From Methylobacter sp. (GTDB lineage: Bacteria > Pseudomonadota > Gammaproteobacteria > Methylococcales > Methylomonadaceae): a DNA stretch of 64,000 nucleotides. Below are positions 9,041 through 10,642 of this stretch, piece by piece. The stretch is taken from assembly GCA_030699385.1 (NCBI GenBank), contig JAUYMY010000081.1:1-64000 (forward strand). Direction: 5' to 3'. The notes below the pieces were generated by a model, which had not been told where the DNA came from, ran no database searches, and was given only the letters and a program-made list of their open reading frames with translations. Made by a program: the position numbers and the translations under genes. Positions within the stretch are counted from its first letter, which is position 1. The number at the start of each line of letters is the position of its first letter.

Positions 9041-9817
9041 ATGAACTCCCTTATTTGTAAAAAAAATGCTATTGAGTCAAATACTTTTGTTCTAGTATTT
9101 GAGCGCCCATTTAATAAACAAGAACTGCAATCTTTATTAAGACTTGAAAATGCATTAAAAAATGATTTACCTTCTTTCAATGAAATTAACAGTATAAATG
9201 TTAGGCTGGAAGGTGGGCAAGTTACGCCATCTCAAGAAATGATAGGCGTTTTATTGCAATGTTTTAAGGCAGACGGTAAGCCTTCGATAGAGTTAAAAAT
9301 AGAGGGCAATATTATTGAAATAATGTGTTTTTCTTATGATAGATGGATAAATGTTTGGGGCAAGGCTAAGCAGTTTTTATTGGAGGCCATAAAATCCATA
9401 GATAATGATAATAAACTTATTATTTGTGTTTTAAAAGTTGTGGATAAGTTTTTGTACGATGGCGACTCAAAAGATTACAAAGTATCAGATATTTTTAATC
9501 AAAATACGCAACTTTTAACAAGGAATATTCTTTCTGGTGAAAAAACAAGATTGTGGCATGTCTTTCAAGGGTGGTTTGAAGAACCTGAAATTTTAAATAA
9601 CTTAAATATCAGTACATTAGACTCTAACGGAAAAACATTGACGACTATTGAGCATGATATTCGTCGTCAATTCCAAGACCCTCAAATAATTTCTGATATT
9701 AAAGAAAAACTAGATGATATTTTTTCTTCTCTGCATGAAAAAAACAAAACAGTTATTAAGTCCTTACTAAATGAAGAGCAGTTAAAAGGAATAGGGCTAT
9801 GCAATCTTCCGTGTTAA
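9041..9817 (+). CDS. Hypothetical protein, resembles TIGR04255 family
   Basis: 258-aa AT-rich ORF; pattern FVLVFERPF...LQCFKADGKPSIELKIEGNIIEIMCFSYDRWINVW recalls TIGR04255 proteins. Confidence 0.6.
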   Translation: MNSLICKKNAIESNTFVLVFERPFNKQELQSLLRLENALKNDLPSFNEINSINVRLEGGQVTPSQEMIGVLLQCFKADGKPSIELKIEGNIIEIMCFSYDRWINVWGKAKQFLLEAIKSIDNDNKLIICVLKVVDKFLYDGDSKDYKVSDIFNQNTQLLTRNILSGEKTRLWHVFQGWFEEPEILNNLNISTLDSNGKTLTTIEHDIRRQFQDPQIISDIKEKLDDIFSSLHEKNKTVIKSLLNEEQLKGIGLCNLPC

Positions 9818-10305
9818 TCAACAAATCAGACAATAATTATAACACTAATACCCAGTATGGCTCTACCGTCCCTGCCTTGCTTATAGGTTTGTCATTACTT
9901 AGCAGTATTCCCAGTGATATGCTTTCTGCATTTGAAAAGAATTCGAGCTCATCTAAGCCTATAACAGAGAAAATAAATATTGATGATGATAATAAAATTT
10001 CAGCACTAAAAGAGTATTACGGCATTAAAGATAAAACTGAAATAAACAATTTTATCTTGTCACATAACTTGATTGATTTTTTGCTATGGATTAATCAACC
10101 TATTGCCGATATTTTCGGTAGTATTAATAAATCGCTACATTTATTTAAATGCTGGGACGAAGAAGATTATCACTTGGTGTTAAATATATTTTCTGAATTA
10201 GATGATATGGATGAGATTTCTGACAAAGAAAATAAATTATTTCAATATATATCAGAAAATAAAAAAGGTAATTTTCTTGATTATGTCGTCATCGCCCAGT
10301 GCTAG
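9799..10305 (+). CDS. Hypothetical protein of accessory cassette
   Basis: 168-aa ORF overlapping upstream stop by about 19 nt; hydrophobic patch VPALLIGLSLLSSI; no family recognised. Confidence 0.6.
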   Translation: MQSSVLINKSDNNYNTNTQYGSTVPALLIGLSLLSSIPSDMLSAFEKNSSSSKPITEKINIDDDNKISALKEYYGIKDKTEINNFILSHNLIDFLLWINQPIADIFGSINKSLHLFKCWDEEDYHLVLNIFSELDDMDEISDKENKLFQYISENKKGNFLDYVVIAQC

Positions 10306-10642
10306 TTTCGATCCAGTTGAATTTTATAAGTTTTCTGGAAAAATTTATCAAGAGCATTCTGGAGAAATTATCTACCGTGTTATCGTTGGTAGAGCCTATT
10401 ATTCTGCTTTTTTATGCGCCAGAGAATTTGCTGGAATAGGAAGCTCAGGAGCGGATGTGCATACAAAAGTCATTGAACATTTTAAATCTAACAATAAAAC
10501 CATTTCCAATCAATTAAAAAGTTTAAAAGATTTGCGACATAGAGCAGACTATGTACTTAACAACTCAATAGAAAAGCGTGATGCTGGCGAATCTTTGCGA
10601 TTAGCTAAGGGCATATTAACGACCCTCAATTATTTATATTAA
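10283..10642 (+). CDS. HEPN-like (UPF0332-type) protein
   Basis: [22 protein letters not shown]...[19 protein letters not shown]...[14 protein letters not shown]...[12 protein letters not shown] track start 10202, ATG at 10283 preferred. Confidence 0.7.

Follow-up and report, generated by a model that had tools for sequence, protein, structure and literature searches.

A TIGR04255–middle protein–HEPN cassette inserted in the ilv operon of a Methylobacter is a candidate tripartite toxin–antitoxin or phage-defense module

Results

A three-gene cassette between ilvH and ilvC

The window, a stretch of 64,000 nucleotides from a Methylobacter sp. contig, carries in its ilv operon a three-gene cassette that we are inclined to regard as a horizontally moved, tripartite toxin–antitoxin (TA) or defense module of the prophage type, whatever the details of its sensing step. 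Gene 1 (9041–9817, + strand) encodes a TIGR04255-family protein of 258 amino acids, proposed as the third component, a guardian or sensor; gene 2 (9799–10305, +) encodes a middle protein of 168 amino acids, proposed as the antitoxin; and gene 3 (10283–10642, +) encodes a HEPN-domain protein of 119 amino acids, proposed as an RNase toxin. An earlier note on this DNA had described three overlapping same-strand ORFs between ilvH and ilvC, and these are present, with overlaps of 19 nt between genes 1 and 2 and 23 nt between genes 2 and 3. All three reading frames are open. An alternative start at 10202 would lengthen the gene 3 product to 146 amino acids; the start giving 119 agrees with the homologues.

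The whole insert in the ilvH–ilvC slot (9025–10665, +), which follows the stop of ilvH (9024) and precedes the start of ilvC (10666), was compared with the empty and Uma2-filled sites of relatives. The ribosome-binding-site context of ilvC (AGGAAAAACC), directly before its ATG, has been retained after the insertion. The AT-rich contrast with the flanking ilv genes that had been pointed out before was evident in both measures used: the GC contents of genes 1, 2, and 3 are 0.31, 0.30, and 0.35, compared with 0.48–0.50 in the ilv genes, and their GC3 values are 0.26, 0.31, and 0.27, compared with 0.51–0.59. With a GC content of 0.31 against 0.48 across the 64 kb, the cassette is the AT-richest of 624 segments of the same size. 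A promoter and terminator scan over the locus found sites no more numerous than in shuffled sequences.

IlvH was present in all 22 relatives from the genus, but the cassette was missing from 21 of them and could not be scored in the other, and the window genome alone among the 23 carries it. The view of ilvI-ilvH-ilvC as a normally contiguous operon holds for the 14 relatives with a bare ilvH–ilvC spacer of 49–126 nt but not for the seven in which the spacer is 700–761 nt long and contains another ORF (one relative could not be scored). In the one relative checked, G041, whose ilvH DNA is 95% identical to that of the window, the slot ORF encodes a Uma2-type nuclease. Because seven relatives carry another ORF there, the junction looks like a recurrent insertion site. 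Vertical conservation in all relatives, which would have refuted the earlier reading, is not what this comparison of ilv operons shows; the cassette is a foreign insertion in the ilv operon. The seven relatives with a slot ORF are L049, L058, L060, L061, L063, L065, and L067; the ORF of L049 encodes a Uma2-type nuclease, and the others start similarly.

Among 237 genomes of the family, a HEPN gene lies directly upstream of ilvC in six genomes from five genera. The full triad is found in the window genome and, between ilvH and ilvC, in G177 (the Methylovulum MAG L001). In G060, the contig ends upstream of the HEPN gene; in G001, a different gene of 276 amino acids stands where TIGR04255 would be; and in G231 and G002, the order is ilvH-middle-HEPN-ilvC without TIGR04255, showing that genes 2 and 3 are able to persist without gene 1. 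Between genera, identities are 53–66% for the HEPN proteins, 40–55% for the middle proteins, and 85–92% for IlvC, and in the two g2 genomes the HEPN proteins are 93% and the IlvC proteins 95% identical. From the comparison of the slot occupants across the six genomes, we therefore conclude that the ilvH–ilvC slot holds exchangeable cargo, of which the middle–HEPN pair is the core and from which TIGR04255 can be missing. The history of the slot may be one of an old insertion followed by losses, or of transfer via the ilv flanks. The 276-amino-acid gene of G001 (L122:1077–1907) belongs to no Pfam family and has a HEPN-like RNYMAH motif by eye.

Elsewhere in the window, the genes at 23559–26545 were read by eye as pmoCAB, and the host is therefore probably a methanotroph. 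At 46065–47672 (+), a PemK/MazF-like N-terminal domain (E 2e-4; score 21.9, cutoff 23.1) appears to continue in the same reading frame into a DegT/RfbH-like sugar aminotransferase part (E 5e-106), either as a true fusion or across an assembly or deletion junction. The gene at 39482–40348 (+), flanked by glyA-like and formate–tetrahydrofolate-ligase-like genes, matches putAbiC (E 1e-17) and thus encodes a putative protein of phage abortive infection.

TIGR04255 triads in bacteria and phages

Gene neighborhoods place the triplet in unrelated contexts, a recurrence that the earlier note had asked about. Two MAGs, one gammaproteobacterial (L002) and one of the planctomycete Rhodopirellula (L003), also carry the window's triad type, as do another member of the class (L047) and the viral contigs L072 and L073/L074. 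TIGR04255 was present in 30 of 399 genomes sampled evenly across the phylum. It almost invariably opens a compact three-gene cassette: two tight same-strand genes follow it in 25 of the 29 loci with an intact ORF by automatic detection and in two more (L018 and L034) by eye; of the remaining two loci, L032 is truncated where its contig ends, which leaves L024 as the sole exception.

Genes 2 and 3 behind TIGR04255 are exchanged as pairs of differing kinds. These comprise a middle protein with HEPN; a middle protein with PemK/MazF (L021; PF02452, E 1.1e-18); an HTH middle protein (HTH_3 in L022) with an unassigned protein of ~270 amino acids; a short middle protein with a protein of ~200 amino acids having an SN(T/S)CD motif (type IV, or SNTCD type); a 'WDG' middle protein with a protein of 130–200 amino acids; and further types. 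Several triad middle genes carry HTH domains. The earlier note had described the module as HEPN with two partners; across the wider family, TIGR04255 and not HEPN is what stays constant. Viral contigs with an SNTCD-type third gene also had the middle gene and TIGR04255 in all 30 new loci, which include a few contigs seen before and many near-identical ones. In a tree of 56 TIGR04255 proteins, partner type changed 11 times, compared with an average of 32.5 (lowest 28) in shuffles and a minimum possible of six for seven types; the inspected nodes are modestly supported (0.55–0.67), and the assignment of partner types relied in part on visual inspection. HEPN pairs occur in two distant TIGR04255 lineages, that of the window and the SNTCD/MazF lineage, to which L047 belongs. 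The tree therefore indicates that the partners are mostly inherited along with TIGR04255 and yet are also exchanged.

Several third genes and neighbors deserve mention in their own right. The SNTCD-type third genes (L086:5075–5683 and relatives, alignment A14) form a well-conserved candidate toxin family with the motifs LQGDGW, LSN[ST]CD, and H.CR..E, for which no relative was found in Pfam or the PDB. The third genes of L017 and L018 are NlpC/papain-like by eye (LAWH and LTCATF motifs), with no Pfam match. The neighbors of L021 were read by eye as PglZ and methylase genes, but they had no Pfam match and this reading was not used.

Several triads lie at phage cargo sites. The triad of L072 abuts an S24-type repressor, and those of L073 and L003 come after an HTH-S24 (CI-type) repressor; these surroundings are phage lysogeny-control regions. 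A triad of the SNTCD type occurs at at least 99% identity in 92 of 5,426 complete Escherichia coli genomes, and in the prophage read as an example, the genes for antiterminator Q and holin flank it, both on the other strand. An SNTCD-type third gene adjoins the portal gene in Pseudomonas phage Dobby (Peduoviridae) and lies between CI and the integrase in phage VW-6S. Positions beside CI, between Q and holin, and beside the portal gene are known kinds of cargo sites, and they therefore support the view that the triad is expressed in lysogens and is probably protective. The proposal of a candidate defense or toxin–antitoxin module agrees with these positions and with third genes that are toxin-like and interchangeable, one of them being a clear PemK/MazF. 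No close relatives of the window's TIGR04255 protein were found among PLSDB plasmids or named phages, and no paper naming TIGR04255 was found in the open-access literature searched. PADLOC has no model for TIGR04255, and newer collections could contain one. Overall, the cassette family is widespread and also phage-borne, and it is apparently undescribed.

An alternative that we consider unlikely, though it deserves serious attention, is a TA addiction (stabilization) module with no dedicated anti-phage role, in which HEPN and the middle protein would maintain the element and TIGR04255 would be an autoregulator or a stability factor. Many TA modules are addictive, and in other genera the ilv slot retains the middle–HEPN pair with no TIGR04255. 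The insert is co-oriented in a biosynthetic operon and adjoins ilvC, so that its loss could be costly, and persistence in the ilv operon across five genera could fit addiction as well as domestication. However, cargo sites by CI, Q, and portal genes, together with partner exchange, are more typical of defense cargo, and the absence of the cassette from most of the genus argues against a long-lasting addiction of lineages.

The TIGR04255 protein

Gene 1 scored 43.8 bits over residues 12–248, above the curated cutoff of 30 bits (NCBIfam sporadTIGR04255), in agreement with its previous description as TIGR04255-like. The AF2 model of the window protein (pLDDT 78) has a two-repeat alpha/beta fold, and that of the viral homologue L086 was obtained with a pLDDT of 90.8 and a pTM of 0.88; both are composed of two repeats of beta-alpha-beta(3-4)-alpha. 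When the models were compared with the PDB using Foldseek, the best match was an AdoMetDC prozyme (E 2.5e-6, low TM-score), followed by many TATA-box-binding proteins (TBPs) at E 3e-3 and worse. The matches in BFVD were viral TBPs and VETF large subunits (E 2e-5 to 9e-4, low TM-scores). As the matches are weak overall, with TM-scores of about 0.2–0.4, we take them as a lead and not as a fold assignment.

This lead bears on a second alternative, in which TIGR04255 would be a TBP-like nucleic-acid-binding regulator or a sensor of phage DNA or RNA that controls the transcription or activation of the TA pair. The repeats of the L086 model follow the TBP order, and both the viral and the PDB matches point in the same direction. 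Nevertheless, we find this reading rather improbable: the TM-scores for TBPs are at most 0.39 with large rmsd, the prozyme rather than a TBP tops the PDB matches, the TIGR04255 sequence profile had no TBP match in the PDB, and hhalign detected no internal sequence repeat.

The middle protein

Gene 2 had no match in the family profile databases searched (including Pfam, NCBIfam, PADLOC, and PHROGs), and the earlier statement that it is of no known family stands. Its homologues are located directly upstream of a HEPN gene and consist of a variable N-terminal extension and a conserved C-terminal part of ~100 amino acids. Codons 23–37 of gene 2 (TVPALLIGLSLLSSI; 9865–9909, +) encode an uncharged hydrophobic segment in the extension, with a hydropathy peak of 1.93. 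Among HEPN-type middle proteins, the N-terminal region is 68–103 amino acids long with TIGR04255 and 44–56 amino acids long in the three homologues without it; the corresponding hydropathy peaks are 0.61–2.35 and 0.01–0.67, although the numbers are small and one middle protein with TIGR04255 falls within the lower range. The hydrophobic segment is strong in only three of the seven HEPN-type middle proteins, and an uncharged hydrophobic stretch from residue 11–33 was present in all 14 type-IV middle proteins checked. The extension is reminiscent of a chaperone-addiction extension, although it is located at the other end of the protein; alternatively, the hydrophobic stretch may be inserted into the membrane.

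These features raise a third alternative, a true toxin–antitoxin–chaperone (TAC) system in which TIGR04255 would be the SecB-type chaperone. TAC systems couple a single accessory protein to unrelated TA families and have a highly variable antitoxin extension (PMC5105189). The logic described for TAC (PMC5105189) and CmdTAC (PMC11618068), one constant protein combined with several TA families and variable antitoxin extensions, seems to recur in the cassette family. Both the longer extension of HEPN-type middle proteins with TIGR04255 and the stretch common to the type-IV proteins would agree with a TAC system. By contrast, hhalign gave probabilities of 0.1–0.2% for TIGR04255 against SecB from relatives, SecB was absent among the Foldseek matches listed, the extensions are N-terminal and not C-terminal, and the gene order is reversed. 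On the hhalign and Foldseek results, we rejected TIGR04255 as a SecB homologue, retained the SecB-like chaperone as a functional analogy alone, and regard a true TAC system as highly improbable.

The HEPN protein and its putative active site

Gene 3 matched Pfam PF05168 with an E-value of 2.8e-4, just below the cutoff (21.5 versus 22 bits), and phrog_5176 with an E-value of 1.5e-14. The profile of its homologues matched the solved HEPN protein PDB 9xbd (E 2.6e-9; pair 9xbd/9xbc) and, at E 0.032, AF0298 (PDB 2hsb). The HEPN-like character recognized in the earlier note is thus well supported, and judged by its sequence gene 3 is a member of the HEPN superfamily. No MNT nucleotidyltransferase family matched either of its partners, as membership of the HEPN-MNT systems would require. 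In PADLOC-DB 2.0.0, genes 1 and 2 were unmatched and gene 3 matched HEPN_IX over 14 residues alone (E 0.005); the E. coli triad was also unmatched, and a known PADLOC system was rejected as the identity of either triad.

The lack of a clear Rx4-6H motif, previously read from LRHRADY, was verified: the sequence is R85-HRA-D89-Y90, with no His at the motif position. That reading is to be refined, as an alternative His/Arg site is conserved. The conserved residues lie within 10460–10552 (+), namely, H60 (10460–10462), R85 (10535–10537), and D89-Y90 (10547–10552). All four are invariant in the seven triad HEPNs, and in a wider set of 26 HEPNs, 25 have H60 and all 26 have D89 and Y90. AF0298-type HEPNs have lost the motif His but strongly conserve an upstream His, which possibly forms an alternative RNase site (Anantharaman et al. 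2013, PMC3710099). Gene 3 conforms to this pattern of a His N-terminal to the motif plus an Arg, with H60 and R85 as the candidate residues. At the residue that aligns with Y90, one of PDB 9xbd and 9xbc has Tyr and the other Phe, which suggests that the depositors regard that position as functional.

That the cassette is domesticated or degenerate cargo, with a catalytically dead HEPN, that tunes ilvC expression or drifts could be argued from the missing canonical motif, from HEPN and middle proteins that diverge much faster than IlvC (53–66% identity for HEPN versus 85–92%), and from its co-orientation within the ilv operon, but the open frames, the invariant residues, and at least 21 relatives that manage without the cassette make this very improbable.

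Discussion

We infer toxicity, neutralization, defense, and a sensing step as the best explanation of the cassette, and suggest that its most likely function is abortive infection directed against phages. Gene 3 would be a HEPN RNase toxin with an alternative His/Arg site of the AF0298 type, and gene 2 would be its cognate antitoxin, the conserved C-terminal domain of which probably neutralizes HEPN. Gene 1 would keep the antitoxin active, perhaps through a grip on the variable N-terminal extension. A phage product would titrate or displace the gene 1 protein so that the antitoxin fails, whereupon HEPN would cut RNA and phage growth would stop. The parts of this scheme are not equally firm. 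From the sequence comparisons, the pairing of HEPN as a toxin with gene 2 as its antitoxin is likely, and an anti-phage role for the cassette is fairly probable. The action of TIGR04255 on the antitoxin extension as a guardian or sensor is a tentative proposal, which rests on genetic architecture. It is also conceivable, and put forward with similar caution, that TIGR04255 proteins constitute a new non-SecB guardian class with a two-repeat TBP-like fold that places many unrelated TA pairs (HEPN, MazF, and several unassigned toxin types) under phage-sensing control.

If this is true, TIGR04255 guardians mark a large unrecognized family of prophage defense systems: a family labeled 'sporadic, unknown' would flag many prophage-borne tripartite systems, including the 92 E. 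coli copies among 5,426 genomes. The toxin–antitoxin-plus-guardian design would then have arisen with a protein unrelated to SecB, and candidate toxin families could be located two genes downstream of TIGR04255.

Several known systems resemble the cassette in part. The candidate system PDC-M32 of PADLOC is related to the WDG-type triads, not to the HEPN triad of the window: the matches of the 'WDG' middle proteins fall in the C-terminal part of PDC-M32A (best E 1.2e-8), and PDC-M32B is matched weakly by these triads, whereas TIGR04255 is unmatched. In methanotrophs, related HEPN genes lie directly downstream of, and often overlap, a regulatory-looking gene (L099–L115), as in the cassette, but these pairs have no TIGR04255. 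Many related HEPN genes in this set are located 3' of genes for proteins of ~250 amino acids, with TPR similarity in the one tested (L102), and to judge from their arrangement the set looks like a second, two-gene toxin–antitoxin type. Homology between the C-terminus of the middle protein and that of these TPR-like partners seemed plausible by eye, but hhalign found none.

With the AF0298-type HEPN-T proteins (PDB 2hsb), gene 3 shares a small HEPN domain, the retained motif Arg, the missing Rx4-6H His, and a conserved upstream His; their partner is an MNT nucleotidyltransferase (PMC3710099), whereas that of the cassette HEPN is a middle protein together with TIGR04255. Tha, a HEPN anti-phage system of a Staphylococcus aureus prophage, likewise provides defense through a prophage-encoded HEPN RNase and, as far as its description goes, differs in its gene layout and has no TIGR04255 (PMC11087260). 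The TAC systems, such as Mycobacterium tuberculosis HigBA1-SecB(TA) and CmdTAC, differ from the cassette in using SecB as the accessory protein, whereas the cassette has TIGR04255, with the accessory gene first, the toxin gene last, and the antitoxin extension at the N-terminus. They are alike in having three genes, a constant accessory protein combined with many unrelated TA pairs, and, it seems, a variable antitoxin extension, and CmdTAC is itself an anti-phage system, in which a capsid protein displaces the chaperone and thereby frees the toxin (PMC11618068).
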